Assembly: GCF_000420425.1 (NCBI RefSeq)
Contig: NZ_ATUX01000005.1
Coordinates: forward strand, 434,001-498,000
Source: Schaalia vaccimaxillae DSM 15804
Lineage (GTDB): Bacteria > Actinomycetota > Actinomycetes > Actinomycetales > Actinomycetaceae
DNA: 64,000 nucleotides
Reading direction: 5' to 3'
Below are positions 44,211-64,000 of this stretch, in pieces; the stretch's first letter is position 1; each line of letters opens with the position of its first letter. The position numbers were made by a program, and so were the translations under genes. The notes beneath the pieces were generated by a model. It saw only the letters and a list, made by a program, of their open reading frames with translations. It was not told the origin of the DNA and did no database searches.

Positions 44211-44249
44211 CGCGGAGTCGGCGTATCCGATATAGACGCCGACTCCGCG
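44211..44249 (+). terminator. Hairpin between binding protein and permease genes
   Basis: A perfect 14-bp stem (44211-44224 with 44236-44249) with an 11-base loop. Such structures in sugar ABC operons usually protect the binding-protein message or partly terminate it, giving more binding protein than permease. Confidence 0.6.
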
Positions 44250-44274
44250 TCGCTCCCCTTAATCGGAGGTCAGT

Positions 44275-46021: not shown

Positions 46022-49000
46022 GACAGCAGCCCGATTCCTTTGACCCGGTAGTGGTGTCTGACCCGGAGATCTTTTCCATCAACCGTATGGCAGCCCATTC
46101 CGACCACTGTTGGTATGCCGATGAGGACGAGGCGGCTCGCTTCCAGTCCTCTTTCGTCACTGTTTTAGATGGGACGTGGAAATACCACCATGCATCGTGT
46201 CCGAGTGATCTTCCCGAAAACTTGGAACTGGCTTCGACCGACATTGCCTCATGGGAGGACATTGCCGTTCCAGGTCACATACAGCTCCAGGGATACGATC
46301 GCCCCCAATACGTCAACTATCAGTATCCGTGGGACGGACATGAAACCGTTGAAGCAGGGCAAGCCCCACGCCTGTACAACCCGATATCGACCTACGCGAC
46401 AAATGTGTATTTGCCTAGGCTCGGCATCGGAGAACGAATCTCTCTAGTTCTTGACGGAGCAGAGTCGGCTGTTGCCGTGTGGGTAGATGGAGTCTTTGTT
46501 GGCTACTCGACTGACTCTTTTACCCCTTCGGAGTTTGATGTCACGAACTTCGCGGATGGTTCGCACCACAGGCTCGTGTGCCGGGTTTGGAAGTGGAGCT
46601 CAGGTTCGTGGCTTGAAGATCACGATTTCTTCCGGTTCTCGGGTATTTTCCGATCTGTGCGCTTGTTGCGCCGGCCTCGTATCCATGTCGAAGATCTGGC
46701 CATCAACGTTCGGTTGAAACCAAACCTGGACACAGCGCAAGTGTCAATCGAGTGCACAGGGGCCGGAATGCACGAGGCCCGCATTCATGCCCATTTGACT
46801 GGCGTCGGAGATTTTCTCGAGGACGGGCGCAAGCTGGTCATTACCGTCACAGATCCGCATCTGTGGAGTGCTGAAGATCCTTATCTCTACCGAGCGATAG
46901 TCACGGTGGCTGACGAGAAGGGAGAAATTGTCGAAGTTATTACCCAAAACGTTGGTATTCGCAGTGTTGGCATTGAAGATGGTCTACTCCTGATCAACGG
47001 GCGACGCGCATTCCTCAAAGGGGTGAATCGTCATGAGTTTGGTCCCGGCGGGCGTGTCCCGGATGAGCAACTCCTTCTGGAAGATCTCAAAGCGCTCAAA
47101 CGTGTCGGAGTGAATGCCATCCGCGCCAGTCACTACCCGAACTCGTCGGCCTTCTATGACCTGTGCGATCGTCTCGGCTTCTACGTCATCGATGAGGCTT
47201 CGGTTGAAACACATGGAATGTGGGATCGAATCATCCGAGGACGAGCCAGCATCGAAGAAGCGATACCTGGCGATTCGTCGCGGTGGAGACCTGCTGTTCA
47301 AGACCGCTTGACCTCGATGGTACGTAGGGATCGTAACCACCCGAGCGTGATCCTCTGGTCACTTGGTAATGAATCTCTGGGGGGAAGTGTCTTCAAAGAC
47401 GTCGCCGACTATGTGCGCGGTATTGATTCTCGTCCTATTCACTACGAGGGCGTTCACTGGGATCCTCGCTATCCGGAGACGACTGACATTACCTCGCAGA
47501 TGTATACGAGTTCCAAAAAAGTCGAGCAATACCTGCGGCACAATGTCGATAAGCCGTTTATTCTGTGCGAGTTCGCTCATGCTATGGGGAATTCTTTCGG
47601 TGCGGTGGATCGCTATATCGATCTCATGAGGAAGATCCCGCACTTCCAAGGGGTCTTTGTCTGGGACTTCGCTGATCAAGCGCTGATGACGTATGACGAA
47701 GAAGGTCGCCCTTTCTGGGGCTATGGAGGGGATTTTGGCGAATCCCCACATGACGGCGACTTCTGCGGTAATGGACTGTTTTTCGCTGACCGCACCCCAA
47801 GTCCTCAGCTCCAGGCACTTAAAGCTATTTATCAGCCCCTCATCATTGGGATCGACCAGGGCGGTATTACTGTCGTCAATGAATTCGAAGTGACCAGAAC
47901 CAATATCTATCGCTGTGTGGTCAGTCTTGAACATCAAGGCACACTTCTTGAGCGTCATGACGTTGAGGTTGATATTGGCCCGACGGAATCTGTTCATTTG
48001 CCCCTCCCGTTTCAGCTACCTGAGACGCCGGGAGAATACGCAGTAGATGTGCGTTTTTTGAGAACACAGGCCTGCGAATGGGCGGAAGTCGGCACAGTCG
48101 TTGCGCGCCAGCAGCGTGTCGTGACGATCGGGCAGGAGTGTTCCAGGTTGAGCAAGATCGTGTCTTCAGCGTCGCTGCGGCCAGCGCCCATACTGGTGGA
48201 CTCTACACACAATATCGGTGTTCGGGGCGATGACTTTGAAGTGTTGTTCTCCCGGATTCATGGAGGAATTCAGTCGTATTTCAGTGGACAGTGGGGTCAT
48301 TCTTCACGCCAGCTTCTGAGGGGCATGCCCACAGTGAACATGTGGCATGCTCCAACATCGAATGAAAGAGGCTGGGGAGCTCCAATGATCGATGCCCAGT
48401 GGCTTGTTGCATCGAGATATTGGAAAGCTCGTGGAGATTTAGATCCGTTTTCAGTTCGCAGAGCAGATGATTGCGTCGAGGTCGAGTGGGTACTCGATCT
48501 TGGGTCGAATCCAACGTCGACGTGCCACATGCGTGCGCGCGTGTACGTCGATTCGACTCTGATCCTGTCGGCTCGTCTTGAAGCAGGAGAAGGCCTAGGG
48601 GATCCGCCAGAATTTGGCTTCCTTATTCCTGTCGATCCGCGACTGCGTCATTTGAAATGGTATGGCGAAGGACCTCAGGAAAGTGCAGTTGACCGTCGTA
48701 ACGGGGCCTTTCTTGGTGTATATGAAACTGATGTGGAATCTACGCTCACCCCATACTTACGTCCACAGGAATGTGGTTCTCGAACTGGTGTGAGGTGGGC
48801 GAGACTAACTGATGATGAGGGTTTTGGCATTGAGATTCTCTCCGATTCGACGATGGAGTTTTCCGCGTTGAAAGCCAGCCCTTTCGAAATCGAAAATGCA
48901 CAGCATCTCGACGAAATCGGGATTCACCGTAGGACATGGCTTCGTCCTGCACTCATGCGTCGAGGGGTTGGCGGGGACGACTCGTGGGGGGCGCAAGTAC

Positions 49001-49110
49001 ATGACGAATATCGACTTGCGGATGGTCCTCTGGACTTCACATGTGCGATGAGGATTATTCATCCGCAGAAGTACACAGGCATCCATGGCCCAGATCACGT
49101 TGCGAACTGA
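46018..49110 (+). CDS. lacZ: Beta-galactosidase (GH2, LacZ type)
   Basis: 1030 residues, the length and five-domain plan of LacZ. The acid/base is Glu452 in SLGNESLGG and the nucleophile Glu518 in LCEFAHAMGNS. GVNRHEFGPGGRVPDE, ASHYPNSSAFYDLCD and the later WGYGGDFGE are active-site segments. No signal peptide is present, so it is cytoplasmic and acts on galactosides imported by the coupled ABC permeases. The gene is somewhat less GC-rich than sdhAB or mdh, like the rest of this operon. Confidence 0.95.
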   Translation: MRQQPDSFDPVVVSDPEIFSINRMAAHSDHCWYADEDEAARFQSSFVTVLDGTWKYHHASCPSDLPENLELASTDIASWEDIAVPGHIQLQGYDRPQYVNYQYPWDGHETVEAGQAPRLYNPISTYATNVYLPRLGIGERISLVLDGAESAVAVWVDGVFVGYSTDSFTPSEFDVTNFADGSHHRLVCRVWKWSSGSWLEDHDFFRFSGIFRSVRLLRRPRIHVEDLAINVRLKPNLDTAQVSIECTGAGMHEARIHAHLTGVGDFLEDGRKLVITVTDPHLWSAEDPYLYRAIVTVADEKGEIVEVITQNVGIRSVGIEDGLLLINGRRAFLKGVNRHEFGPGGRVPDEQLLLEDLKALKRVGVNAIRASHYPNSSAFYDLCDRLGFYVIDEASVETHGMWDRIIRGRASIEEAIPGDSSRWRPAVQDRLTSMVRRDRNHPSVILWSLGNESLGGSVFKDVADYVRGIDSRPIHYEGVHWDPRYPETTDITSQMYTSSKKVEQYLRHNVDKPFILCEFAHAMGNSFGAVDRYIDLMRKIPHFQGVFVWDFADQALMTYDEEGRPFWGYGGDFGESPHDGDFCGNGLFFADRTPSPQLQALKAIYQPLIIGIDQGGITVVNEFEVTRTNIYRCVVSLEHQGTLLERHDVEVDIGPTESVHLPLPFQLPETPGEYAVDVRFLRTQACEWAEVGTVVARQQRVVTIGQECSRLSKIVSSASLRPAPILVDSTHNIGVRGDDFEVLFSRIHGGIQSYFSGQWGHSSRQLLRGMPTVNMWHAPTSNERGWGAPMIDAQWLVASRYWKARGDLDPFSVRRADDCVEVEWVLDLGSNPTSTCHMRARVYVDSTLILSARLEAGEGLGDPPEFGFLIPVDPRLRHLKWYGEGPQESAVDRRNGAFLGVYETDVESTLTPYLRPQECGSRTGVRWARLTDDEGFGIEILSDSTMEFSALKASPFEIENAQHLDEIGIHRRTWLRPALMRRGVGGDDSWGAQVHDEYRLADGPLDFTCAMRIIHPQKYTGIHGPDHVAN

Positions 49111-49174
49111 TGGTCAATTAGGACTGGTCTCCCTGCACAACACCCATGCGGGGCTTTAGGCTTGGGGTATGTGA

Positions 49175-50233
<1,059 letters not shown>

Positions 50234-50250
50234 TTGTCGATGGGCGTAAA

Positions 50251-50284
50251 AACGGCGGCGGCGAAAATCTGCGCCGCCGCCGTT
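50251..50284. terminator. Terminator between mdh and the convergent peptidase gene
   Basis: A perfect 13-bp GC-rich stem (50251-50263 with 50272-50284) with an eight-base loop. A serves-both position between convergent stops. Confidence 0.85.
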
Positions 50285-50290
50285 GCCGCA

Positions 50291-51898
50291 TCACATCGTT
50301 GGATCCATCTGGCAGGTGGCCCCAGCTTCGGGGACTTTTCCTTCCAGTAGGTAGGCAGTGGCTTTTTCGTCTGCACACAGTGAACGTCCGGAGAAGGAAC
50401 CGCCGTGTCCGTCTCCTTCAATGGTCAAAAGGTTAGCGTTGCCTAGCTGTTTGGTCAGTGAAACTGCGTGCTCGTAGGGGGTTGCATGGTCCCCAGTGAT
50501 ACCGACGACGAGAATCGGGGTTTTGACCTTTGATGCGTCAAAGTCCGTCAGGTCAGTGCCGGTTGATGGAACCGCCGCGCAGTCCAGGTTCTGGTGTGCG
50601 TATTCGCCAATCACTTCTTCGGTGAGTTCTGGACCTCCGACAAACTCGGGGACGCCGACTTCCTTCATATGATCAATCAGGCCGGAAACATCGGGTTTCT
50701 TTGGCGATGACGGGCACATCGCCAGGATGCCGGCCGTGCCGACGGCAGCGCCACCGTCCTTCATCAATTCGACGATCGAGTCAATCGATTCCTGGTCTCC
50801 TGCCTTTGCCTTGCCTAGCAGATCAAGTAGAGTACCCGGACCCATATACAGAGCCGTCGTCAAATAGTCTCTCAACGTTTTTCCAGTGAACTCTTCGCCC
50901 TCAGTAGGTTTGAGCGGGGCTTCATTAAGAGTATTGATGTAATCGAGCATCTCGCGTTCCGATGTAAACGGACAGGTGACAGGTTCCCCCTCGTCTGTGG
51001 TCAGCGTTGAACAGGAATCGGCCAACTTTCCGACGGCTTTCGAGACGGCGACCTGCTGATCGAAATTGCTCGTCAAGGAGGCCCACTGGGCATCGTCGGC
51101 TGAATCCAAGATCATGCGCCCAGCCTTGTCGGGGAACAGTGTTGCGTAGGTTGCTCCCAATAGGGTTCCGTAGGAATAACCGTGGTAGTCGAGCTGTTCT
51201 GCACCGCTGAGGACGCGTAGCATCTCCATGTCGCGGGCGACATGGGACGTACCCATGTATTGGGTGACAGGGTGCTTTTTGATGCATTCGGATAGGCGTA
51301 CGGCGCTTGCCTCGTCCGTGGTTTCGCAGTCCAGAGGGGCTGAGTTGCCGACGCCACGCGGATCGAACCCCCAGATTTCGTAGGCCTGCCTGATCTTGTC
51401 CATCTCTGGGAATGCTGGCATGGACATCGCGTGCGTGACGCCGCTGGCTCCGGGACCTCCGGGGTTGTTGAATAGTGGTTTGCCTTTGCCGTCTTTCGCG
51501 GTGGAGGGGATGCGTACGATGGCCAGGTCGACAGTCCGAGTATCGGTCGGATCTGCCCAGTTTATCGGTGCTTTGACAGTTCCGCATTGATAAGTTGAGG
51601 AATCGTTATGTCCGCTCGCGTCAAGTGCCTCTGTGACGTTTGAATCGAGTCCGTCCTGTTCAGTGCAGGTACGCCAGTCAATTTTTTGGGTGTAGAAGGA
51701 GGCGAAGTTTTCCTGCTGCCATGAATCGTCATGGGACTTGTCTGCTGCACTTGCCGATTGAGCCGTGGCTGAGCTGGGGATGCTAGCCGTGCATCCTGAT
51801 AGGGCAAGGATAGTGGCCGATGTGACGGCTGCGCCCTGAAGTAGTCGGCGGCGTCTGTCCGAGGGGGTGGTGCGGGGATTGGCCGTAATGAATGGCAC
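50291..51898 (-). CDS. Secreted lipoprotein alpha/beta hydrolase of the tripeptidyl aminopeptidase (TAP/Slp) family
   Basis: 535 residues. A basic N-terminus (DRRRRLLQGAA) and hydrophobic run end in the lipobox LSGC, so the protein is probably exported and lipid-anchored. The hydrolase domain has NNPGGPGASG (oxyanion region), the nucleophile elbow GYSYGT, the acid in GDHATPYE and the histidine in GDGHGG; cysteine pairs near the C-terminus match the TAP C-terminal domain. GTG 51898 has AAGGAGGG upstream; the open frame to 52099 is not needed. It probably trims peptides outside the cell. Confidence 0.88.
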   Translation of the reverse strand: MPFITANPRTTPSDRRRRLLQGAAVTSATILALSGCTASIPSSATAQSASAADKSHDDSWQQENFASFYTQKIDWRTCTEQDGLDSNVTEALDASGHNDSSTYQCGTVKAPINWADPTDTRTVDLAIVRIPSTAKDGKGKPLFNNPGGPGASGVTHAMSMPAFPEMDKIRQAYEIWGFDPRGVGNSAPLDCETTDEASAVRLSECIKKHPVTQYMGTSHVARDMEMLRVLSGAEQLDYHGYSYGTLLGATYATLFPDKAGRMILDSADDAQWASLTSNFDQQVAVSKAVGKLADSCSTLTTDEGEPVTCPFTSEREMLDYINTLNEAPLKPTEGEEFTGKTLRDYLTTALYMGPGTLLDLLGKAKAGDQESIDSIVELMKDGGAAVGTAGILAMCPSSPKKPDVSGLIDHMKEVGVPEFVGGPELTEEVIGEYAHQNLDCAAVPSTGTDLTDFDASKVKTPILVVGITGDHATPYEHAVSLTKQLGNANLLTIEGDGHGGSFSGRSLCADEKATAYLLEGKVPEAGATCQMDPTM

Positions 51899-52245
51899 GA
51901 AAGGTTCCCTCCTTCGAAATGGTGGTCTACGAACAACCAACTTTGAGTTCCTTCGTGGAACTGGGTCGGATTCGGCGTCTGACGAGCGCCAAGAAAAAAG
52001 GTAGAAGCCGGTCCTGAACTGTTCCTGAGAATATTCTGAACAATGTAGAAAAGCCTGTATTCCTGCGCTTTTCTCCCTATAAAAAGAAGTGGTTATCATT
52101 CTCTATTTCAACAAAAGTGCAGAGCTCAGCAGGTCGCACATGGGTGCATTTGGAGAATGCTGGATAGGACTTCGACAAACTGGACGACATCTGAGCCGTC
52201 GGGCGATCAGCCCGGCGTTACTACGTCAGCATTCAAGGAAATCTC
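51899..52245. other. Divergent intergenic region upstream of the isomerase gene
   Basis: About 350 bases with no supported gene. The region 52010-52130 is AT-rich and contains the 10-bp palindrome AGAATATTCT (52028-52037) inside a longer imperfect one (GTTC...GAAC). It is a candidate site for the SorC-type regulator encoded at 59.6 kb, but no second copy was found. Confidence 0.45.
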
Positions 52246-52725
52246 ATGGGCTTCAAGATTGTTGTCGCCGCCGATGCAGCCGGTGTCGAGTACAAGGATA
52301 TTCTCAAAAAGGACCTCGAGGCAGACCCAAGAGTCGATGAAGTCATCGACGCTGGGCTCGCTGTCGGTGAGGATGTTGATTACCCACATGTGGCTGTCAA
52401 GGCTGCGCGTATCGTTGCGGATGGACGAGCTGACCGTGGTCTTTTCGTGTGTGGCACCGGGATGGGCGTCGCCATGGCTGCTAATAAAGTTCCCGGTATT
52501 CGCGCGTCGGTTGCGCACGATTCCTTTTCCGTTGAGCGTTTAATTCTGTCAAATAACGCTCAAATCCTCACTTTTGGCCAAAGAGTCATCGGCATCGAGC
52601 TTGCGCGTCGGCTGACGCGAGAATGGCTCGGCTATGAATTTGACCCGAACTCGGCGTCCGCACCCAAAGTTGCGGCCCTTGAATCCTACGACGCAGGAGC
52701 GATTACCGAATCCACTGCCTGTTGA
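52246..52725 (+). CDS. RpiB/LacAB/EryI-family sugar-phosphate isomerase
   Basis: 159 residues with the family motif FVCGTGMGVAMAANK; Cys69 is the likely proton-transfer base. Compared with E. coli RpiB, the phosphate-site His10 is replaced by Ala11 (VAADAAG) and the ring-opening His99 by Ser102 (LILSNNAQ). Loss of the ring-opening residue fits an open-chain substrate such as a tetrulose 4-phosphate, as for EryI/DerI-type isomerases; this is inference. AAGGAAATC precedes ATG. It is the first gene of the 52-60 kb cluster. Confidence 0.88.
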   Translation: MGFKIVVAADAAGVEYKDILKKDLEADPRVDEVIDAGLAVGEDVDYPHVAVKAARIVADGRADRGLFVCGTGMGVAMAANKVPGIRASVAHDSFSVERLILSNNAQILTFGQRVIGIELARRLTREWLGYEFDPNSASAPKVAALESYDAGAITESTAC

Positions 52726-52736
52726 ACAAACTGTCT

Positions 52737-52774
52737 CCCTGTTACCTTCCGCAGATAAGCGGAAGGTAACAGGG
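52737..52774 (+). terminator. Strong hairpin between the isomerase and membrane-protein genes
   Basis: A perfect 16-bp stem (52737-52752 with 52759-52774) with a six-base loop, followed by GATAAAAATA. It may end a separate isomerase transcript or attenuate the operon. Confidence 0.75.
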
Positions 52775-52843
52775 GATAAAAATACCCCATCCATTCCGAT
52801 GCGGGCGATGGTGCCCGCATCCAGTCTTCAAGGACGAAGATAA

Positions 52844-53800
52844 ATGACACCTGACGCACTTATCACTTTTGCGGGCATGGACCTTTTCTGGATGCTCCTA
52901 GCCCTCGCTGGCGGCGCTTTTGGGGCCATGATTGGCGCTAACTATGCCTTCGGATTTACCGGCTTGACCATCCTCACAGGCTTTGCGATCGGTGCTGCTA
53001 CCGGTAATACGGCCTTCCTTGACTGGGTTTCCTTTGGTCCTGTCTTCGGCCCACACATTGGATTTGCTGGAGGCGTCGCGGGCGCGGCATACGCAGCCAA
53101 GAAGGGTTACATGCCTTCCGGTCGGGATGTCAACACTCAGCTTGTGGGCTTCGGCAAGCCCGATATTTTACTCGTCGGCGCTGTTTTTGGCCTTGGTGGT
53201 TACATTTTCAAGTCCCTTGTGTCCCTCATTCCCTGGTTTGGTTCCCACACCGACGCCGTTGCACTAACCGTTGTCACCTCTGGCATCGTTGCTCGCTTAA
53301 TGTTCGGTAAGACCGGTGTCTTCCACAAGCTCACGGCTCCCGAGGGCGACAAGCGTTGGCTCGACTGGCAAGAAACTCCCGGTCAACTCTTGACCGTGTC
53401 TGGTTTTGCTTCCCTTCTCGCATCCGGTGCTGCCGTCATGCTTGTTGGATACCTTGCACCCCTGGCCGCGGATGCCGCTTTTGTTCAAAATAACGCCCAG
53501 ATCATCCCATTCTCGATCTCTTCCGTGTGCATCTTCTTCGTTGCTATGGGCTACAAGTTCCCTGTTACCCACCACATGACGATCATCGCTGGCCTCGCTG
53601 CCATCCAATTCTTGACAATCACTGGATCTGGTTTCGCAGCAGTCCTAATTGGAACTTGCTTCGGTGTTGTTTCTGGTTTCGCTGGCGAGTATGCAGCTCG
53701 TTGGACAAACGCGCATGGTGACACCCACATCGATCCTCCGGCGGCTGTTATCTGGTTCATGACCACCGCCGTCTGGGGATCGGTTCTGATTTTCTCCTGA
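52844..53800 (+). CDS. Multi-pass membrane protein of unknown family, candidate transporter
   Basis: 318 residues, glycine- and alanine-rich, with roughly nine membrane segments by eye. Notable parts are GGAFGAMIGANYAFGF near the N-terminus, GPHIGFAGGVAGAAYAAKKGY, an internal hydrophilic stretch (APEGDKRWLDWQETPG) and YKFPVTHHMT near residue 235. I do not recognise a transporter family and see no ATPase motif. AAGGACG precedes ATG. Its position between an isomerase and kinases makes it the best candidate for substrate uptake in this cluster. Confidence 0.75.
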   Translation: MTPDALITFAGMDLFWMLLALAGGAFGAMIGANYAFGFTGLTILTGFAIGAATGNTAFLDWVSFGPVFGPHIGFAGGVAGAAYAAKKGYMPSGRDVNTQLVGFGKPDILLVGAVFGLGGYIFKSLVSLIPWFGSHTDAVALTVVTSGIVARLMFGKTGVFHKLTAPEGDKRWLDWQETPGQLLTVSGFASLLASGAAVMLVGYLAPLAADAAFVQNNAQIIPFSISSVCIFFVAMGYKFPVTHHMTIIAGLAAIQFLTITGSGFAAVLIGTCFGVVSGFAGEYAARWTNAHGDTHIDPPAAVIWFMTTAVWGSVLIFS

Positions 53801-53832
53801 TTCTCTAACACTTCGATCCAAAGGAACGACCG

Positions 53833-54705
53833 ATGGACGCCGCAGCTTCTCTTACCGCATGGCCCGAACGTCTCTACGACGCATATGTCTTCGACATGGA
53901 CGGAACGATCTACTTAGGTGATCAGTTTCTTCCCGGCGCTAAGCGTCTGGTCGAGGAGCTGCGCCGTCGTTCCATCCCTGTCCGATTCTTGTCGAATAAT
54001 CCCACCAAGGACCCTCAACAGTACGTTGAGAAGCTTGAGAGAATTGGTTTGCCTACTCCTATCGACGAGATTGCCAACACCGTCGTGACCATGACGCGCT
54101 GGCTCGTCGACAACCACCCTGGCAAAGTCGTCTACCCGATCGCAGAAGAGCCGCTGATCCGCGCCTTCCGCGAGGCTGGGATCCCCATGAGCGAGGACCC
54201 GGAGCAGATCGATATCGTCGTCGCCTCGTACGACCGCACCTTCGAGTACCGCAAGCTGCAGATCGCCTTCGACGCCATCTGGTTCCACAAGCGGGCGATC
54301 CTCGTCGCGACGAACCCCGACCGCTTCTGCCCCTTCCCCGGCGGGCGAGGAGAACCCGACTGCGCGGCCATCATCGCCGCCATCGAGGCCTGCACCGGCA
54401 CCACCTGCCAGTTCGTCGTCGGCAAACCGAATCCTGCAATGGCCGAGGCCGCACTCGGGGACCTCGACGTTGACCCGCGTGCATGCGTCATGGTCGGAGA
54501 CCGTCTGCTGACCGATATCGGCATGGCCACCAACACCGGGATGTTCTCGGCGATGCCGCTGACCGGCGAATCCACGCTCGAGGAGGCACTGGCCCTGCCC
54601 GAATCCGAACGACCCACCCACGTCCTCGATCGAGTCGACCGCCTGATCCCCAAGGCCATCTGGGATGAGCTCGGCTGGACCGAGGAGAACGACCCGATCA
54701 ACTGA
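53833..54705 (+). CDS. HAD-IIA (NagD/AraL-type) sugar phosphatase
   Basis: 290 residues. HAD motif I is VFDMDGTIYLG (Asp21, Asp23), motif II FLSNNPTK, motif III lysine VGKPNP and motif IV MVGDRLLTDIG, with the C2 cap between II and III. Family members such as AraL and NagD remove phosphate from assorted sugar phosphates and may relieve toxic build-up. AAGGAA precedes ATG. Base composition changes sharply near codon 85: the 5' part resembles its upstream neighbours and the rest is much richer in GC. Confidence 0.9.
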   Translation: MDAAASLTAWPERLYDAYVFDMDGTIYLGDQFLPGAKRLVEELRRRSIPVRFLSNNPTKDPQQYVEKLERIGLPTPIDEIANTVVTMTRWLVDNHPGKVVYPIAEEPLIRAFREAGIPMSEDPEQIDIVVASYDRTFEYRKLQIAFDAIWFHKRAILVATNPDRFCPFPGGRGEPDCAAIIAAIEACTGTTCQFVVGKPNPAMAEAALGDLDVDPRACVMVGDRLLTDIGMATNTGMFSAMPLTGESTLEEALALPESERPTHVLDRVDRLIPKAIWDELGWTEENDPIN

Positions 54706-54765
54706 TCCGCGGGAAACCGCACCCCTAACCGCCACGACGACGTGGCCCGACGAAAGAGGAAAACA

Positions 54766-56328
54766 ATGGTCAACCCCGGTTACGAAGGTCCTTATCTGAT
54801 GGGATTCGACTACGGCACGGAGTCGTGCCGTGCGGCCATCTTCGACCTCCAGGGGCACCCCATCGCCTTCGCCGCGACCCCCTACAAGACCTACCATCCC
54901 CGTCCGGGATGGGCCGAGCAGAACCCCCAGGACTGGTGGAACGCCATCGTCGCCTCCACCCGCAAGGTCCTCGATGAGACGGGCATCCCCGCTCGCGCGA
55001 TCTGCGGCATCTCCTATGACGCCACCACCATGACCGTCGTCGCCATGGACGAGAACGGCCATGAGCTGCGCAATGCGATCATGTGGATGGACGTGCGCGC
55101 AACCGACCAGTCCGCGCGTGCCGAAACCATCGACCACTGGGCCCGCCACTACAACGGCGGCGGTACCATGCCCGCCACCGCCGAGTGGTTCCCCTTCAAG
55201 GCGGCCTGGCTCAAGGAGAACGAGCCCGATGTCTACAATGCCGCCTATCGCCTGGTGGACGCACCCGAGTGGCTCACCTACAAGCTGACCGGCGAGTGGA
55301 CGCTCAACATCAACTCCGCCGCCCTTCGCATGTACTACAACCGCGACCACGGCGGCTGGCCCGTCGAGTTCTACGAGCACATCGGCTGCGGCGACGTCTT
55401 CGCGAAGCTGCCCGAGCGTATCCTCGACCTCGGCACCCCGATCGGCGGTCTGTCCACCTCCGCCGCCCAGGAACTCGGCCTGCTGCCCGGCACGCCCGTC
55501 GCCCAGGGCTGCGCGGATGCCTGGGCGGGCCAGATCGGCCTGGGCGTCGTCTCGCCCGGCAAGACCGCAGTCATCACCGGCTCGTCCCACGTCATCACCG
55601 GTCAGTCCGGCAAACCGCTGCACGGCGAGGGCTTCTTCGGCGGTTACACCGACGGCGTCCTGCCCGGCCAGTACACCTGCGAGGGCGGTCTCGTCTCCTC
55701 CGGCTCCACGCTCAAGTGGTTCAAGGACAACTTCTGTCGAGACCTGACCACCGCCGCCGAGCGGCTGGGCCAGAACCCGTACAAGGTCCTCGACGAACGC
55801 GTCCGCGACATGCCCCCCGGCTCGAACGGCCTCATCATCAACGAGTACTTCCAGGGCAACCGCACCCCGTACACGGACTCCAAAGCCCGCGGCATCATGT
55901 GGGGCCTCACCCTGGGCACGACGCCCGAGCAGGTCTACCACGCGATCGAGGAAGCGGTCTGCTTCGGCGTCGCGCACAACCTCAAGGCCTTCGCCGATGC
56001 CGGGTTCGAGGCCACCGAGCTCGTCGCCTGCGGCGGCGCCACCAAGTCGCGCGACTGGATGCAGATGCACTCCGACGTCACGGGCCTGCCCGTGACCCTG
56101 ACCGAGGTCGGCGACGCCGTGGTCCTGGGTTCGTGCATGCTGGCGGCGGTCGGCTCCGGCCAGTACCAGTCCATCGAGGATGCCGCGCGCAATATGGTTC
56201 GCGAGACCGAGCGCATCGAGCCCCGCATGGACGTCCATGACGAATACCAGTTCTATTTCGAGAAGTACATGGAGACCTACCCGCAGATGCAGGAGCTCTC
56301 CCACCAGATGGTCGATCACCTCGCGTGA
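54766..56328 (+). CDS. FGGY-family carbohydrate kinase 1 (EryA-like size)
   Basis: 520 residues. The N-terminal ATP/sugar motif is MGFDYGTESCRAAIFD and the C-terminal FGGY signature region includes ELVACGGATKSRDWMQMHSD. The catalytic aspartate is expected in QGCADAWAGQIG. FGGY kinases phosphorylate polyols or ketoses. Its length is close to erythritol, xylulose and glycerol kinases. ATG 54766 has AGAGG upstream; ATG 54742 lies before that site. It is followed at 18 bases by the dehydrogenase. The substrate is unknown. High GC. Confidence 0.9.
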   Translation: MVNPGYEGPYLMGFDYGTESCRAAIFDLQGHPIAFAATPYKTYHPRPGWAEQNPQDWWNAIVASTRKVLDETGIPARAICGISYDATTMTVVAMDENGHELRNAIMWMDVRATDQSARAETIDHWARHYNGGGTMPATAEWFPFKAAWLKENEPDVYNAAYRLVDAPEWLTYKLTGEWTLNINSAALRMYYNRDHGGWPVEFYEHIGCGDVFAKLPERILDLGTPIGGLSTSAAQELGLLPGTPVAQGCADAWAGQIGLGVVSPGKTAVITGSSHVITGQSGKPLHGEGFFGGYTDGVLPGQYTCEGGLVSSGSTLKWFKDNFCRDLTTAAERLGQNPYKVLDERVRDMPPGSNGLIINEYFQGNRTPYTDSKARGIMWGLTLGTTPEQVYHAIEEAVCFGVAHNLKAFADAGFEATELVACGGATKSRDWMQMHSDVTGLPVTLTEVGDAVVLGSCMLAAVGSGQYQSIEDAARNMVRETERIEPRMDVHDEYQFYFEKYMETYPQMQELSHQMVDHLA

Positions 56329-56346
56329 CCGGCGGGAAGAAGTGAC

Positions 56347-57717
56347 ATGTCAGTCGAACTGATCCAGCAGGCGCTCAAGACCGCCACGGATACCAAGGAC
56401 ATCGTGTTCGGACGCGACGTCCTCAAGGAGACCGGAGCAGTGTTCGCGCGCAACTTCCCGGGCAAGAAGGTGCTTGTCGTCGCAGACGGCAACACCTTCG
56501 CCGCCGCGGGTGACGCGGTCGTCGAATCGTTGACGGCAGCCGGCGTCGAGTTCGCCGAGGCGCCGTACGTCTTCCCGGGGACGCCCACCCTGTATGCAGG
56601 CTACGAGAACGTTGAGATCCTGCGTGAGCACATCCGCCCCCTCGAGGACGCGGTCGTGTGCTCCATCGCGTCGGGCACCCTCAATGACCTCGCCAAGCTC
56701 GCCTCCGGAGAACTGGGCCGCCCGTACATGAACGTGTGCACAGCGCCTTCGGTCGATGGCTACGCCGCGTTCGGTGCATCCATCGCCAAGGAAGGCTTCA
56801 AGATCACGCGCGATTGCCCGGCGCCGGTCGCGCTGGTCGCCGACCTCGACGTCATCGCCGCCTCTCCCAAGCGCCTGATCGCCACCGGCTACGGCGACCT
56901 CATCGAGAAGATCCCCGCGGGAGCCGACTGGATGCTCGCCGACGAACTCGGCATCGAGCCCATCGACGACTACGTGTGGAGCCTCGTCCAGGGGCCGCTC
57001 GCGGATGCGCTCAAGGACCCGGACAAGATCGGCGCGGGCGACCCCGAAGCGATCACCGGTCTGGCCGAGGGCAACATCATGTCGGGCCTGGCCATGCAGG
57101 CGGCCCAGTCCTCGCGCCCCGCATCCGGAGCCGGCCACCAGTTCTCCCACGTGTGGGAGATGGAGGGCCACGGTCTGGATTGGGAGCCGCCGCTGTCCCA
57201 CGGCATGAAGGTCGGTGTGGGAACTGTCGCTTCCTGCGCCATGTGGGAGGAGGCCCTCAAGCTCGACATCGCGGCTGTGGACGCCGACGCGGTGGTGGCG
57301 GCCGCCAAGACGGATGAGCAGGTCGAGGCGGAGGTCCGCGCTCTGCTGATCCCCAAGATCGCCGAGGAATCGGTCAAGCACTCGGTCGGCAAGAACCTCC
57401 AGGGCGAGGAGCGCAGGGCCCGCGTCGAGGCGATCAAGGCCGCATGGCCGCGCATCGTCGAGCGCGTCCGCCCGCAGCTCATCTCCGCGGACGAGGCGGC
57501 TGCGCGTCTGAAGGCCGTGGGCGCCCCGTACCACCCGGAGATGATCGAGGTCGACATGGAGCGGTTCCGCCAGACTCACGTCAAGGCGCAGATGATCCGT
57601 CCCCGCTACACGATCTTCGATGCGCTCAACGACCTGGGGCTGCTCAACACCGTCATCGAGAACCTGTTCTCGCCCGACGGCTACTGGGGCAAGCACCCGC
57701 ACAAGGAAGAGGCCTGA
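56347..57717 (+). CDS. AraM/EgsA-like glycerol-1-phosphate-type dehydrogenase
   Basis: 456 residues of the metal-dependent (Fe-ADH fold) sn-glycerol-1-phosphate dehydrogenase family. Nucleotide-binding segments are VCSIASGTLNDLAK and CTAPSVDGYAAFG. The metal ligands are the Asp in GYGDLIEK, a His in GAGHQFSHVWEM and the His in PLSHGMKVGVG. In Bacillus the AraM relative reduces dihydroxyacetone phosphate to glycerol 1-phosphate. Here, next to two FGGY kinases and an isomerase, it could oxidise a polyol phosphate to a ketose phosphate; that is inference. High GC. Confidence 0.9.
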   Translation: MSVELIQQALKTATDTKDIVFGRDVLKETGAVFARNFPGKKVLVVADGNTFAAAGDAVVESLTAAGVEFAEAPYVFPGTPTLYAGYENVEILREHIRPLEDAVVCSIASGTLNDLAKLASGELGRPYMNVCTAPSVDGYAAFGASIAKEGFKITRDCPAPVALVADLDVIAASPKRLIATGYGDLIEKIPAGADWMLADELGIEPIDDYVWSLVQGPLADALKDPDKIGAGDPEAITGLAEGNIMSGLAMQAAQSSRPASGAGHQFSHVWEMEGHGLDWEPPLSHGMKVGVGTVASCAMWEEALKLDIAAVDADAVVAAAKTDEQVEAEVRALLIPKIAEESVKHSVGKNLQGEERRARVEAIKAAWPRIVERVRPQLISADEAAARLKAVGAPYHPEMIEVDMERFRQTHVKAQMIRPRYTIFDALNDLGLLNTVIENLFSPDGYWGKHPHKEEA

Positions 57718-57737
57718 TCGGGCCCGATCCCGCTCGA

Positions 57738-57771
57738 GGTCCGCCGCGCCCGGCAACGGGCGCGGCGGACC
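57738..57771 (+). terminator. Hairpin between dehydrogenase and second kinase
   Basis: A perfect 15-bp stem (57738-57752 with 57757-57771) closed by a GCAA tetraloop. No U tract; possible terminator or message-stability element. Confidence 0.7.
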
Positions 57772-57869
57772 AGCATGGGTCGTCCGCATGCGGCCGACGA
57801 CCAATCGAATCGCTACCGCGCGGCGCTGATCGCCGCGCCTCCGGCTGAATCACAGAGAAGAGTTCGCAC

Positions 57870-59546
57870 ATGATCAACGAAGATCTTGAGAACACCTACA
57901 CCATCGGATTGGACTTCGGGACGCTCTCCGTGCGCGCCGCAGTCGTCCGCGTCAGCGACGGCGCGGTGCTGGCCGATGCCGTGCGCGAGTACCGGACGCC
58001 GATCATGGATCGCACCCTGGCCGTCGGAGACGGCCGCGCGTTGCCGCCCGATTTCGCGCTGCAAGTGCCCGCCGACTACCTGACTGCGATGTGCGAGGCG
58101 GTTCCCGAAGCGATCCTGCGCGCGAATATCAAGAAGGATCAGATCGTCGGGATCGGCCTGGACTGCACCTCGGCCTCGGTCCTGCTGACTGACTCTACGG
58201 GCACCCCCATGTGCGAGTATCCCGAGTTCATCAATGAGCCGCAGGCCTACCTCAAGCTGTGGAAGCACCACGGCGCCCAGGATCAAGCGGATCGGATTGT
58301 TGCGCTCGCGAAAGAACGCGGTGAGTCGTGGCTCGCCCGGTACGGCGGCATCCTGTCCTCGGAGATGCTCCTGCCCAAGGCGCTCGAAGCGTTCGAGAAC
58401 GCTCCCGCCCTGTACTCCGCGACGGCGGAGATCGTCGACCTCGTCGACTGGTTGACTTGGGAGTTGACCGGGACCCTTGCCTACGCGGCGGGCGACTCCG
58501 GCTACAAGCGCATGTATCAGGACGGGCACTACCCCGATCCCGAGTTCCTCGAGGGCCTGGCCCCCGGCTTCGGATCCGTCTTCTCGGAGAAGATGAGCCA
58601 TCCGATCGTCCCCCTGGGTTCGCGGGTCGGCGGGCTCATCGAGGTTTACGCCGAGGTGTTCGGGATCCCCGCGGGGACTGCGGTGGCGGCGGGCAACATT
58701 GATGCCCATGTGCAGTGCGCGTCCGTGGATGCGGTGCGGCCCGGGCAGATGACCGGCATCATGGGGACGTCCACCTGCTGGATCCTGCCGTCAGCCGAAC
58801 CGATCGAGGTTCCCGGGGTCTTCGGCTTGGTCGACGGCGGCGTCGTCGACGGGTCGTGGGCGTATGAGGCGGGCCAATCGGCAGTGGGGGATATCTTCGC
58901 CTGGTTCGTCGATCACTGCGTGCCCGCATCGTATTTCGCCGAGGCCGAGGAGCGCGGTGTGTCGATCCACCGCGTCCTTGGCGCCAAGGCGGCGCGCGAG
59001 GAGGTGGGCGAACACGGCATGGTCGCCTTGGACTGGTGGAACGGAAATCGTTCGACCCTGGTCGATTCGCGCCTGTCGGGCCTGCTCGTCGGGCAGACCC
59101 TGACCTCCACTCCGGAGCAGCAGTACCGCGCGCACTTGGAGTCGACGGCGTTCGGAGCCCGCGTCATCATCGAGAACTTCGAAGAATACGGAGTCCCCGT
59201 TGATGAGCTGCGCATCGCCGGCGGCCTCATCAAGGACGCCTTCCTCATGCAGATGTACGCCGACATCCTTCGCCGTCCGCTGCGCACCGCTAAGACCCTT
59301 CAGGCGGGCGCGCACGGGTCGGCGATCTTTGCGGCGGTTGCGGCAGGGGTCTACGAGGATGTGCCGACGGCGGCCTCTCACATGGGCGGTGTGTCGGAAA
59401 CCGCGTATAAGCCGAACGAAGAGCAGTCGCTCAAGTACGACAAACTGTATGAGCAGTACAAATACCTGTACGACCTGTTTGGGCGCGGCAATAGGGTGAT
59501 GCATACTCTCAAGGAGATCCGTTCTCAAGCTCTTGTTCGGCGTTAA
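57870..59546 (+). CDS. AraB-like ribulokinase (FGGY kinase 2)
   Basis: 558 residues, the length of L-ribulokinase. The N-terminal motif is TIGLDFGTLSVRAAVV, the middle has GNIDAHVQCASV and GIMGTSTCWI, and the C-terminal FGGY part includes ELRIAGGLIKDAFLMQMYAD. AraB enzymes accept several ketopentoses and pentitols. No arabinose isomerase (AraA) or ribulose-phosphate epimerase (AraD) is nearby, so L-arabinose is not the obvious substrate. AGAGAAGAG precedes ATG. GC falls to the background level in the last 50 codons. Confidence 0.9.
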   Translation: MINEDLENTYTIGLDFGTLSVRAAVVRVSDGAVLADAVREYRTPIMDRTLAVGDGRALPPDFALQVPADYLTAMCEAVPEAILRANIKKDQIVGIGLDCTSASVLLTDSTGTPMCEYPEFINEPQAYLKLWKHHGAQDQADRIVALAKERGESWLARYGGILSSEMLLPKALEAFENAPALYSATAEIVDLVDWLTWELTGTLAYAAGDSGYKRMYQDGHYPDPEFLEGLAPGFGSVFSEKMSHPIVPLGSRVGGLIEVYAEVFGIPAGTAVAAGNIDAHVQCASVDAVRPGQMTGIMGTSTCWILPSAEPIEVPGVFGLVDGGVVDGSWAYEAGQSAVGDIFAWFVDHCVPASYFAEAEERGVSIHRVLGAKAAREEVGEHGMVALDWWNGNRSTLVDSRLSGLLVGQTLTSTPEQQYRAHLESTAFGARVIIENFEEYGVPVDELRIAGGLIKDAFLMQMYADILRRPLRTAKTLQAGAHGSAIFAAVAAGVYEDVPTAASHMGGVSETAYKPNEEQSLKYDKLYEQYKYLYDLFGRGNRVMHTLKEIRSQALVRR

Positions 59547-59584
59547 TCTTCAGATGAGCGGATGGATTGGAGGAAGAACTTCTT

Positions 59585-60520
59585 GTGGAGAATTACCGTG
59601 AATTGCTCGCTCTGCGTGCCGCCGAGCTTTACTATTACGAGAACCTCACGCAAGGGGCTATTGCTGAGCGTATGAACTGTACCCGCTGGACGGTGGGACG
59701 CCTATTGGACGAAGCCAGGGAATCTGGCATCGTGCGAATTTCCATCAATCATCCTCGTGCCAGGATCCGAGAACTCGAGAATGAGTTGCGGGAGGCTTTC
59801 GGCCTACGTGATGCGGTAGTTGTCAAGGCGCAGGGGTCGGATGCCGCCACAGTAGGCCTCGTGGCGGCATCCGCTTCGGACTTCATTACGTCGCAGCGTC
59901 CTCGTCCCGGCTCGCTGGGTATCGCCTGGGGACGGACTCTCACTGCTGTTGCCAGGGCAATGCCCGATAACTGGACCTCCGGTCTGGAGGTCTATCAGAC
60001 GTACGGCGGTTTGGTCCGTTCGAATGATGATGAGGTGGCCGATTCGATTGGTCTGATGGCTCGTAGAGGCAGGGGAGTAGGACATATGCTTCCAGCCCCT
60101 GCTATTGTCACTGATGCAGAATTGGGTTTTCGGCTCCGACGTGAACCTTCGGTAGCGCGCACTCTTGCAGCCGGGCCCTCCTCGGACCTGATGATCTATT
60201 CACCGGGGGTTTTGGAAGCCGAGTCGGTTCTCGTTAAGTCAGGTTTTCTATCCGAAAATGGAATGGAACGGCTTCGTTCCATGGGGGCAGTGACAGATAT
60301 TTTCTCTCACTTCCTGGATGAGGATGGAAATCCGGTGTCGAAGGAATTGGAAGCGCGTACTATCGCAGTCTCTTTGGATGACATTCGACGCTCAAAGATG
60401 TTGCTGCTTGTTGCTTCTGGTCCTGCCAAAGTGAGACCGACTAGGGTTGCAGTGCGGTCAGGGCTTGCCCATGTCGTCATTACGGATGGGGATACTGCTC
60501 AGGGGATTCTCGACCTGTAA
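59585..60520 (+). CDS. SorC/DeoR-type sugar-binding transcriptional regulator (EryD-like)
   Basis: 311 residues. The N-terminal helix-turn-helix is YYENLTQGAIAERMNCTRWT followed by VGRLLDEA; the rest is the SorC effector domain (SLGIAWGRTLTAVARAMP, YQTYGGLV, GMERLRSMGAVTDIF). SorC proteins bind phosphorylated sugars; the erythritol regulator EryD is of this type and size. I chose GTG 59585, behind GGAGG; TTG 59567 is an alternative but overlaps that site. It closes the 52-60 kb cluster and is its likely regulator. Confidence 0.9.
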   Translation: MENYRELLALRAAELYYYENLTQGAIAERMNCTRWTVGRLLDEARESGIVRISINHPRARIRELENELREAFGLRDAVVVKAQGSDAATVGLVAASASDFITSQRPRPGSLGIAWGRTLTAVARAMPDNWTSGLEVYQTYGGLVRSNDDEVADSIGLMARRGRGVGHMLPAPAIVTDAELGFRLRREPSVARTLAAGPSSDLMIYSPGVLEAESVLVKSGFLSENGMERLRSMGAVTDIFSHFLDEDGNPVSKELEARTIAVSLDDIRRSKMLLLVASGPAKVRPTRVAVRSGLAHVVITDGDTAQGILDL

Positions 60521-60560
60521 AAATAGTGCGGCAGTGTGAGTGGGAGGGTTTCAGTCTAAA

Positions 60561-60576
60561 TTTGCTACGTTGCAAA
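60561..60576. promoter_or_regulatory. LacI-type operator upstream of the GH2 operon
   Basis: TTTGCTACGTTGCAAA is a 16-bp palindrome with a single mismatched pair, centred on ACGT, 30 bases before the GH2 start. It resembles the sites near lacI at 42.65 and 42.80 kb but is not identical. Confidence 0.65.
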
Positions 60577-60605
60577 AATGATGTGATCTATGCCATCATG
60601 TCCTT

Positions 60606-62447
60606 ATGGTGATCAAAGAAGATTCATCCGCGCCTTGGTTTGACGCAGAATACCCTCGTCCTCAGTTACGCCGATCCCAATGGCAGAACCTCAACGGTGA
60701 CTGGTCCTTTGCCTATGATCCCAACGATGTCGGTGTTGACGAGAGATGGTGGCTCGATCCATCACCTCTAGCGCAGAATATTCGCGTTCCGTTCCCTCCA
60801 GGAAGTTCGTTATCCACCGTCGTGGAGGAGGACTGTGATGTCGTGTGGTACGCACGCCATATCCGTATCGCGCATCTACCGTCTCCCACGGATCGAGTGC
60901 TGCTCCACTTCGAAGCCATTGACCATGAGGCTGACATCTGGATAAACGGGCATCACCTTGCCCATCACATCGGCGGATACACACCAATCTGTGTCGATAT
61001 GACGGCTGCCCTCGATGGTGCTGAAGCGCTTGTAGTCGTGCGGGCGCGAGACGAACGACTCAACATTGACCAGCCACGAGGCAAGCAGGACTGGCAGGTG
61101 CAAACGCATGGAATCTGGTATTGCCGATCTACCGGAATCTGGCGTGACGTGTGGACCGAGACAGTCCCCGAATTATCCATCGAATCGGTGACCTGGGGAA
61201 GTGATCTTGTAGCCGGGACCATCTCGTGCTCAATTGCGTTGCGCGGGCATCCCAAAGGGCAGGTCAACGTTGTTGTTGGAGATATAGATGCGCCCCTAGT
61301 GTGCGCGAGTGCTCCGATCGTATCGTCGCGAGTCGAACTCGTTCTCGAAGTTCCTGCTCTAAGGAATAAGCTCGAATGGGACACGCTGGTGTGGAGGCCA
61401 GATCATCCAGTTCTCTTCGATGCCAGTATCGATATTGTCGGACCTACGCACAAAGACCACGTAGTCACCTACCTTGGAATCCGCCAAGTTGATCTCTCCT
61501 GCGGATATTTAAGGATGAATAATGATCCCGTCTATGTACGCGCAGTTCTCGATCAAGGCTACTGGGAAGAATCATATTTCACTGCCCCCACCCCAAATCA
61601 TTTGCGCGCCGACCTCGAATGCGCTCAATCCCTAGGCTTCAACACTGTACGTGTACACCAGAGGACTCCAGATCGGCGTTACTTGGCATGGGCGGATCGT
61701 CTTGGCATTATGGTCTGGTCTGAATATGCCTCGGCCTACGCTTTTTCGCGCGATGCCATTGATCAGTTCGTTAGCGGGTGGAGCGAGATTGTCCGCCGGG
61801 ATCTGTCCCATCCCAGTATCGTCGCCTGGGTCCCCTTCAACGAGAGTTGGGGAGTGCCTGGCATTGTTGACGATCCGCGTCAGCAAGCCTTTGTTGATGG
61901 AGTCGTTGCTTTGACTCGTGCCTTAGATGGCTCCAGACCCGTTATTGCCAATGATGGCTGGGAACAACTTGATACTGACATCATTACGATTCATGACTAT
62001 GGGACAACCTATGGGCAACTCCTTGTCAACTATGCTGACGAGGCGGCAGTCGCCCAGACAATTGAGGGAATTGGACCCCAAGGGCGCACAATCCTTCTGC
62101 GTGGTGAATATGACGACCGCCCCGTCATGGTCTCAGAATTTGGGGGCATCGCCCTTAACCGTTCCGGTCCTCAAGCATGGGGCTACGGTGTAGTCGAAGA
62201 TTGGCAAGCCCTCGAAACTAGGGTTGCCGAACTCTTTGATGCTCTGTACCGTTCCCCCGCCATATCCGGTGTTTGTTACACCCAACTTACAGACACTGCT
62301 CAGGAAGCTAACGGTCTGTGTTGGGCTGACCGTAGCCCCAAGATTCCGACTGACAGAATCCGCCGATTCGTCAATCCCGCAGATCGACTGAATGAGCAGA
62401 TTAGACCTCGGACTATCCGTGAGATCAGCACCTTGGAGGACACATGA
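60606..62447 (+). CDS. GH2 beta-glycosidase (short beta-galactosidase/beta-glucuronidase type)
   Basis: 613 residues: sugar-binding domain, immunoglobulin-like domain and TIM barrel. The acid/base is Glu413 in VPFNESWGVPG and the nucleophile Glu511 in VMVSEFGGIA. No signal peptide, so intracellular. It differs from LacZ at 46 kb in size and barrel sequence, and specificity (galactoside, glucuronide, mannoside) is not clear. No clear ribosome site precedes ATG 60606. Its stop overlaps the following permease (ATGA), so it is coupled to uptake. Confidence 0.88.
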   Translation: MVIKEDSSAPWFDAEYPRPQLRRSQWQNLNGDWSFAYDPNDVGVDERWWLDPSPLAQNIRVPFPPGSSLSTVVEEDCDVVWYARHIRIAHLPSPTDRVLLHFEAIDHEADIWINGHHLAHHIGGYTPICVDMTAALDGAEALVVVRARDERLNIDQPRGKQDWQVQTHGIWYCRSTGIWRDVWTETVPELSIESVTWGSDLVAGTISCSIALRGHPKGQVNVVVGDIDAPLVCASAPIVSSRVELVLEVPALRNKLEWDTLVWRPDHPVLFDASIDIVGPTHKDHVVTYLGIRQVDLSCGYLRMNNDPVYVRAVLDQGYWEESYFTAPTPNHLRADLECAQSLGFNTVRVHQRTPDRRYLAWADRLGIMVWSEYASAYAFSRDAIDQFVSGWSEIVRRDLSHPSIVAWVPFNESWGVPGIVDDPRQQAFVDGVVALTRALDGSRPVIANDGWEQLDTDIITIHDYGTTYGQLLVNYADEAAVAQTIEGIGPQGRTILLRGEYDDRPVMVSEFGGIALNRSGPQAWGYGVVEDWQALETRVAELFDALYRSPAISGVCYTQLTDTAQEANGLCWADRSPKIPTDRIRRFVNPADRLNEQIRPRTIREISTLEDT

Positions 62448-63511
62448 AGATACGAATGGATGCGCGCACAGCAATTAACAACTTCTCCTTTGTCCTCCCG
62501 TTCCTTGTTTTCTATACCATCTTCATTATTTTCCCGGTGGTTCAAGCAGCTGTCATGAGTGGTTTCTCTTGGGATCTGCTCGGTGGTGCACCGCAATGGA
62601 GTTCGGGACGCAACTATGTCGATATGCTCGGTGGAACCGGACTGACCTGGGATATGAGTCATCGTTTGATCGAACGGCTTGTCCTTATCGTCTGTGCTCT
62701 TCTTTTGATGTTCAAAGGGATTCGTCGTGACTTAAGCATCGGTGGCTGGGTACTCGTCGCACTCCTCGTAGTCTGCGCCGCACTTTTAGGCATCCATCCG
62801 GGCGAAGGCGGATCGTGGAATGATCCGCGTTTCTATAATGCCCTTGAAAACACCGTCGTCTTCACGCTCGTTTCATCCCCGGTAATCGCTGGGATCGGTC
62901 TATTCCTTGCGATTATGCTGCACCGGCGTCACCGACTTACGGGCCTGTACCGGGCGATTTTCTTTCTGCCGTACATCCTTCCGGTGTCCGTAGCCACGCT
63001 GATCTGGGGCTACCTTTTCAATCCTTCGCGGGGCCTTGTTTCCGTCTTAACCGAATGGGTCGGGGTAGGAACGATCAATTGGTTGTCTGATCCGCGATTT
63101 GCGATGAGCGCGATCATCGTAACGACCGTCTGGTGGACAGTCGGATTCAATATGATTCTCTTCGAGGCAGGTCTTGAGGATATTGATCCTGTCCTCTATG
63201 AGGCTGCGGCCCTTGATGGAGCGGGGCCCTGGCGCCAATTTCGATACATCACTGTGCCCGGTCTCAAGCATGCGACACTTCTGGTTACAGTTACCCAGAT
63301 CATCGCTTCCTTCCAAATTTTTGGACAGGTGAATATTATGACCGCCGGTGGACCCGCAGGGTCGACGGATGTTCTGGTCCGCTACATTTATGAGACTGCT
63401 TTTCGTGACACGAGGCTCGGCTATGCCTCTTCGATGTCTCTCGTTCTCTTCGTTCTTATGGTAGTGATTTCCCTTGTTCAATTCCTCATGTCGAAGGGGA
63501 AAGAGCGATGA
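62444..63511 (+). CDS. Sugar ABC transporter permease (MalF type), GH2 operon
   Basis: 355 residues. The EAA loop is EAAALDGAGPWRQFRYITVP near residue 250. Between the first and second core helices there is an extra hydrophobic segment (about 80-115), making it longer than the 44.3-kb permease. The start overlaps the GH2 stop and its stop overlaps the next permease. Confidence 0.9.
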   Translation: MKIRMDARTAINNFSFVLPFLVFYTIFIIFPVVQAAVMSGFSWDLLGGAPQWSSGRNYVDMLGGTGLTWDMSHRLIERLVLIVCALLLMFKGIRRDLSIGGWVLVALLVVCAALLGIHPGEGGSWNDPRFYNALENTVVFTLVSSPVIAGIGLFLAIMLHRRHRLTGLYRAIFFLPYILPVSVATLIWGYLFNPSRGLVSVLTEWVGVGTINWLSDPRFAMSAIIVTTVWWTVGFNMILFEAGLEDIDPVLYEAAALDGAGPWRQFRYITVPGLKHATLLVTVTQIIASFQIFGQVNIMTAGGPAGSTDVLVRYIYETAFRDTRLGYASSMSLVLFVLMVVISLVQFLMSKGKER

Positions 63512-64000
63512 TGAGACCTCATGTGAACGTGACCACCCCGGTGGAAAATAGACGAACAAAAGCATTGAATCTGAGGGCTATTGCCTACCACACGATGATG
63601 GTATTTTTGGCCACTTGCTGGGTGATTCCGATGCTGTGGATGCTTTCGCTATCTTTATCCGACAATGTGCTGCTCAAGGCAGACTCGCAGCACTTACTGC
63701 CTCAAGGAATAACCCTTGGGAACTATCTTGATGTCCTGAGTACTGGGTTGACCGATACGTGGTTCATTAACTCAATGGTGGTCTCAATGGCGACGACCGT
63801 CATCACGGTTGTTATCTGCGCAATGGCAGGCTATGCCTTTGCCAAGCTCCCCTTCCCAGGCAGGATGCTGATCTATGTGCTGTGCTTGGCGGGGATGATG
63901 GTCCCCAAGGAAGCGATGTTCGTTCCCCTTTTCACGATGTTCTCCGACATTAGTATGCACAACACCTATTCGGCGCTCGTTTTACCTAGACTTGCCTTCC
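63508..64000 (+). CDS. Sugar ABC transporter permease (MalG type), 3' end outside window
   Basis: The frame starts at ATG 63508, overlapping the previous stop (ATGA), and stays open to the window end (164 codons). Translation gives a basic N-terminus, a first helix VFLATCWVIPMLWMLSLSLS, WFINSMVVSMATTVITVV, and MAGYAFAKLPFPGR, as expected for MalG-type permeases before the EAA loop. The binding protein of this system must lie downstream because none is upstream. Confidence 0.88.
   Translation, partial: MMRPHVNVTTPVENRRTKALNLRAIAYHTMMVFLATCWVIPMLWMLSLSLSDNVLLKADSQHLLPQGITLGNYLDVLSTGLTDTWFINSMVVSMATTVITVVICAMAGYAFAKLPFPGRMLIYVLCLAGMMVPKEAMFVPLFTMFSDISMHNTYSALVLPRLAF

Follow-up and report, generated by a model that had tools for sequence, protein, structure and literature searches.

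Organization of the locus

The window analyzed here is a 64,000-nucleotide stretch of Schaalia vaccimaxillae DSM 15804 (G000:C5:434001-498000, where G000 is the organism's own genome of 2.34 Mb in 13 contigs; other G numbers denote the genomes compared with it). It contains an operon that encodes, in order, an RpiB-type isomerase, a membrane-type protein, a HAD-IIA phosphatase, a first FGGY-family kinase (FGGY1), an AraM-like protein, a second FGGY-family kinase (FGGY2) and a SorC/DeoR-type regulator (Table 1). Judging from these protein families, the operon likely functions in the breakdown of sugar or polyol phosphates. The FGGY1 protein has its closest named matches in Pauljensenia, Schaalia and Actinomyces, and the AraM-like protein matches the NCBIfam glycerol-1-phosphate dehydrogenase model below that model's cut-off. 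The membrane-type protein has neither a Pfam nor an NCBIfam match; a protein of this type follows the isomerase and precedes the phosphatase in many Actinomycetaceae loci and in some Propionibacteriaceae loci.

Table 1. Features of the operon, and one GC peak outside it, in coordinates of the window
Feature	Position	Strand	GC3	Basis or remark
Malate dehydrogenase, other GC peak, outside the block	49226..50233	+	0.81	Own highly expressed codon model +42, best foreign model +16
RpiB/LacAB-type sugar-phosphate isomerase, 5' flank	52246..52725	+	0.54	Pfam LacAB_rpiB and NCBIfam TIGR02133 over cut-off
Membrane-type protein (by eye), 318 aa	52844..53800	+	0.58	No family match; operon member by synteny; native codon usage
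HAD-IIA phosphatase codons 1-76, putative native part	53833..54060	+	0.56 (codons 1-75)	Own codon model best
Left edge (support interval), HAD codons 75-88	54057..54096	+		Change-point analysis
HAD phosphatase codons 77-290, putative imported part	54061..54705	+	0.82-0.89	Codon model
FGGY-family carbohydrate kinase (FGGY1), within block	54742..56328	+	0.90	Pfam/NCBIfam searches, GC3, codon model
AraM / glycerol-1-phosphate dehydrogenase-like, within block	56347..57717	+	0.89	Pfam Fe-ADH_2 over cut-off
L-ribulokinase-like FGGY2 codons 1-540, putative imported part	57870..59489	+	0.78-0.85	NCBIfam ribulokinase over cut-off
Right edge (support interval), FGGY2 codons 488-552	59330..59525	+		Best 59,489/59,492
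SorC/DeoR-type regulator, 3' flank	59567..60520	+	about 0.53-0.54	Pfam Sugar-bind; own codon model best

A high-GC block with edges inside genes

The GC content of 400-base windows is 50-57% at 52.0-53.8 kb, 63-70% at 54.0-59.4 kb and 49-60% beyond 59.4 kb. Change-point analysis of third-position GC (GC3) delimits a block of about 5.4 kb from 54,060 to 59,490, with GC3 values of 0.55 before, 0.87 within and 0.52 after it. The three-segment fit sets the edges at 54,060/54,063 and 59,489/59,492 with a log-likelihood gain of 163.8; on a coarse grid the gain is 161.5, as compared with at most 12.2 across 200 shuffles on the same grid. An earlier note on this DNA had described a sharp high-GC block from 54,060 to 59,420 with edges inside genes. 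The GC windows and the change-point fit against shuffles establish that this block is real. Its left edge as first read is exactly the best-fit position, and its right edge as first read lies inside the support interval, with the best fit at 59,489. Both edges do fall within intact genes, those of the HAD phosphatase and the ribulokinase FGGY2, and a fit with the edges moved to the HAD start and the FGGY2 stop is worse by 30.0.

The two edges differ in sharpness. Shifting the left edge alone to the HAD start costs 21.5, and shifting the right edge alone to the FGGY2 stop costs 9.4 log units, which makes the right edge the weaker supported of the two; GC3 there is 0.78 in FGGY2 codons 491-540 and 0.41 in the last 18 codons. 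Taken whole, the HAD and FGGY2 genes have GC3 values of 0.78 and 0.83, respectively. The HAD gene's own GC3 step, from 0.55 to 0.86, has a p value of 0.0005 by shuffling (the floor of the test); of the 294 genes sampled from this genome, two rank above it, a 3,000-codon gene and an open reading frame of a second high-GC block (see below) whose start was probably called too far upstream. The terminal step in FGGY2 has a p value of 0.0035. FGGY1 has a separate step near its start, at codon 22 (p 0.001), and therefore a step inside a gene need not mean a breakpoint. The protein alignment with G011 is gap-free across the left edge.

Within the block, FGGY1 and the AraM-like gene have the top two GC3 values among 295 genes called in 400 kb of the organism's own genome. 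Third positions of the block (A 0.05, C 0.56, G 0.31, T 0.08) sit among those of G009, G011 and G008, so little amelioration is visible.

The locus in related genomes

The comparison set consists of 28 related loci. A DNA match is present in 107 of the 213 family genomes searched (own included), and 27 of these are in the comparison; the G014, G031 and G026 loci and a second G012 locus were used in the protein-identity comparison only. Of the 28 loci, 21 preserve the order RpiB, membrane protein, HAD, FGGY1, AraM and FGGY2, and in 11 of these SorC follows; on this account the recipient very likely had the operon already before any replacement. The operon is patchy in the genus, with any DNA match in 19 of 35 genomes (own included), several of these matches spanning only 26-92 bases.

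The block-minus-flank GC3 contrast is 0.33 in the window as opposed to -0.073 to 0.106 across the 28 loci, some of which include paralogous FGGY matches in this calculation because it preceded the masking of such matches. The earlier note had held that a GC profile shared by close relatives would speak against replacement; such a profile is absent, as the block appears in 0 of 28 loci. Within the genomes sampled, this contrast confines the GC3 step to the present lineage. In the relatives, GC3 along the operon mostly tracks each genome (0.44-0.67 in G034 and G032, 0.50-0.72 in G025, 0.77-0.93 in G009 and G011, and 0.88 and above in G008 and G079). The exception is G004, where the HAD gene alone is low, at 0.66-0.74 versus 0.94 and above.

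This G004 HAD gene (L126:8177-9052; G004:C17:278176-279051) has third positions of A 0.00, C 0.11, G 0.60 and T 0.28 amid C-rich neighbors, and its combined third-position G and T is the highest of 278 open reading frames called in 420 kb of G004. By eye, roughly nine codons at either end appear native, and in this genome no FGGY1 gene separates HAD from AraM. Neither a donor nor a cause of the patch was found; the best-scoring DNA match outside G004 among the 213 genomes is to G009 at 72%.

At the protein level, FGGY1 of the window is 90% identical to that of the lower-GC G025 versus 89% to that of G009, and the AraM-like protein is 81% identical to each. As a separate observation, the FGGY1 proteins of G079, G044, G052 and G042 (L189, L190, L191 and L192) are 81-83% identical to that of the window while rpoB is only 73% identical, which may reflect an older exchange of the operon between genera or simply a slower evolution of FGGY1.

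Codon choice in the block

Raised GC3 is also seen in the organism's own highly expressed genes, among them an EF-Tu-like gene (0.84), a likely 2-oxoacid dehydrogenase E1 gene (L140:6715-9168; 0.86) and malate dehydrogenase (0.81, separate from the block); the EF-Tu-like, E1 and SdhA-like genes were named by eye, and the E1 reading comes from its neighbors. GC alone therefore cannot decide between import and expression, and we used codon models in which codon choice is conditioned on the amino acid. The models of G009, G011 and G008 represent ordinary genes; those of G009 and G011, congeners of 65-69% GC, are built from 16 and 21 genes, respectively, and those of G044, G066 and G079 from 2 to 6 genes each.

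On the block, codon usage scored over the organism's own average is +248 for G009, +241 for G011 and +232 for G008, as compared with +133 for the own highly expressed set. The G009 model exceeds the highly expressed one by 115.6 (bootstrap 95% 70.5-159.6), and the G011 model does so by 108.1 (bootstrap 95% 74.7-144.4). For HAD codons 77-290 the G009 model scores +32 versus +12 for the own highly expressed model. The own average model fits the flanks; for RpiB the own-genome model is within 1.6 units of the best and ties with the G025 model. The own highly expressed model is the best one for the malate dehydrogenase, SdhA-like and likely 2-oxoacid dehydrogenase E1 genes. Codon choice in the block is foreign and unlike the host's highly expressed type, and the GC peak at malate dehydrogenase is explained by expression.

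These scores were also applied to single genes. The gene calls here, in the GC3 ranking, in the codon models and in G004 come from a simple codon-score script, and in high-GC DNA some of them are in the wrong frame or too long. A foreign-over-native score above 10 is reached by only 5 of the 566 genes, which were called in 800 kb: three whole block genes and two genes of the second block. Scored over its full length, the hybrid HAD gene is not flagged. Of the 33 genes in the highly expressed set, 3 fit a foreign model better, with a margin of at most 18.8, even though this set trained the highly expressed model.

Phylogenetic placement and the donor

For tree construction, one of two G040 loci was left out of the alignments and FGGY matches of less than 45% identity were masked; the trees contained 18 rows, or 12 or 13 rows, of the 28 in the alignment, window included. 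In the block tree the window falls into a supported set together with G009, G011, G025, G008 and G004; in the SorC tree its companions in such a set are G008, G025, G009 and G011. The window lacks a resolved place in the 5'-flank tree, where G011 is nearest by path, and likewise in the rpoB tree, beside G025, G008 and the group of G011, G004 and G009. Several block trees are weak, and neither the flank and block trees nor those of individual genes establish a conflict.

Placement tests were run with 12 relatives, with uncorrected p values and with each region on its own backbone. The block is placed best on G011 (AU 0.92) with G025 rejected (AU p 0.012), SorC is placed best on G025 (AU 0.89) with G011 rejected (p 0.024), and the 5' flank accepts G008 together with G025, G011 and others. 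The phylogenies across the edges appear weakly incongruent in a backbone-dependent manner, and this weak incongruence suggests a donor inside the same clade.

The block has no DNA match closer than 81% in the 213 family genomes; matches at that level, to G009, G011 and G079, span roughly its first 3.6 kb, and the ribulokinase part reaches 76% at most. We did not accept this 81% identity to high-GC relatives as evidence of a donor, since after correction for composition the fourfold sites are near chance: across the 12 relatives tabulated their identity is close to that expected from composition with a slight excess only. The largest excess, 0.19 of the possible range, is seen for FGGY1 against G079 and G044. 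Given the 81% match and this slight excess, we infer, from composition only, that the donor was an unsampled high-GC congener.

Proposed homologous replacement and its alternatives

The reading that best accounts for these results, to which we assign a probability of about 0.87, is the homologous replacement of a piece of roughly 5.4 kb by DNA from an unsampled high-GC congener. A fragment from such a congener, of about 65-69% GC, would have recombined homologously into the recipient's own copy of the operon, replacing resident DNA from approximately HAD codon 76 to approximately ribulokinase codon 540 and leaving both hybrid genes in frame. The block would then be imported and the flanks native, presumably by a single event. 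Homologous recombination is the simplest route because the edges lie in genes, the frames and the gene order are kept, the block is single-copy and a mobile signature is lacking. A search of the own genome found no second copy of the block, the only other match being 34 bases inside the block itself. There is no tRNA gene in 44,000-64,000, no repeat in 53,600-60,000 that would link one edge to the other and no recombinase or other mobile signature among 10 proteins scanned with Pfam and NCBIfam from 49,226 to 62,444. The gain of a genomic island was rejected on the lack of a tRNA, edge repeat or recombinase in these ranges and on the presence of the genes in relatives. The earlier note had likewise argued for replacement from a higher-GC relative and not island gain. 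Replacement as opposed to island gain holds, though with weak tree evidence, given the 21 of 28 collinear loci, the in-gene edges, the gap-free left-edge alignment, the single copy and the foreign codon choice; a higher-GC relative as the source agrees with the best fit of codon models from congeners of 65-69% GC, the donor being judged by composition only.

The fragment would have entered by natural transformation or by some other uptake that relies on homology. The own genome encodes homologues of ComEC and DprA, and since 10 and 11 of 14 control genomes do so as well, natural transformation is a possible route only. The papers listed by literature searches included none to the point, and the main text of a Schaalia odontolytica paper held no competence terms.

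It is very improbable that the history ran in reverse, with a whole high-GC operon arriving and its ends later being overwritten by native-type DNA, or that it involved more than one event. Composition alone gives neither direction nor event number, and the best-fitting foreign model is G011 for FGGY2 and G009 for HAD, FGGY1 and AraM. However, GC3 of FGGY2 is below that of FGGY1 in G009 too, the flank genes and their order are as expected of a vertically held operon, and two later overwritings are less parsimonious than one event.

Translational selection, by which a highly expressed operon core would have gained C- and G-ending codons in place, is very improbable for the block, and we rejected it there on the codon models while accepting it for malate dehydrogenase. 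In its favor are the gain of 133 of the highly expressed model over the average model on the block and the raised GC3 (0.81-0.86) of three own highly expressed genes. Against it, four foreign models (G009, G011, G008 and G066) beat the highly expressed model on the block by 79-116, the edges lie inside genes and relatives of similar GC at the locus show little contrast (0.007 in G025 and 0.035 in G034). An assembly chimera or contamination by a high-GC genome is scarcely credible, even in a 13-contig assembly, as both junctions lie in open, full-length, conserved frames (the left one gap-free), estimated contamination is 0.44% and no near-identical source exists among the 213 genomes.

A second high-GC block

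Contig C11 of the own genome has a second high-GC block (L143 7,678-13,189) with GC3 values of 0.59, 0.87 and 0.57 before, within and after it and a gain of 147. It covers most of a GH3-like gene as well as esterase-like, oxidoreductase-like and GH10-like genes (all named by eye), and these genes together with a preceding GH43-like gene are collinear in G011. Codon models mark the esterase-, oxidoreductase- and GH10-like genes as clearly foreign (G008 +211 over the own average). The GH3 part is fit better by the own highly expressed model than by any foreign model, for which reason the left edge of this block may not be a breakpoint. Two blocks of about 5.5 kb with in-gene edges in a sampled third of the genome, along with the HAD patch in G004, raise the idea that homologous exchange across large GC gaps, affecting this operon and sugar-utilization clusters generally, is commoner in this genus than elsewhere; we consider this doubtful.

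Comparison with known systems

The locus is a clear example of in-place patching of a metabolic operon, by DNA some 7-11 GC points off that of its host and with hybrid genes at both ends. It also allows import and expression-driven codon bias to be separated within one region, by comparison of the block with malate dehydrogenase. Screens for whole-gene transfer would misread such hybrid genes, as did our gene-level scan in leaving HAD unflagged. The general view of bacterial recombination is unchanged by this case.

Mosaic operons reportedly arise by xenologous gene displacement in situ, in which foreign orthologues are said to replace operon members while gene order is kept. The event described here is similar in that resident operon members would have been replaced with their order kept, but differs in that the likely donor is a close congener and the piece begins and ends inside genes. 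In naturally transformable bacteria, kilobase tracts recombine homologously between related species. The block resembles these in being a tract of a few kilobases with in-gene ends, neither of which shows signs of a mobile element, whereas its uptake route is one that we infer. The type of event is already known, namely displacement in situ with intragenic breakpoints, and the operon is a good specimen of this process. Breakpoints that interrupt genes and cut protein-coding regions are described for within-gene lateral transfer by Chan et al. 2009 (PMC2639706); the edges reported here likewise cut protein-coding regions but were detected by a change in composition and not as phylogenetic breakpoints.
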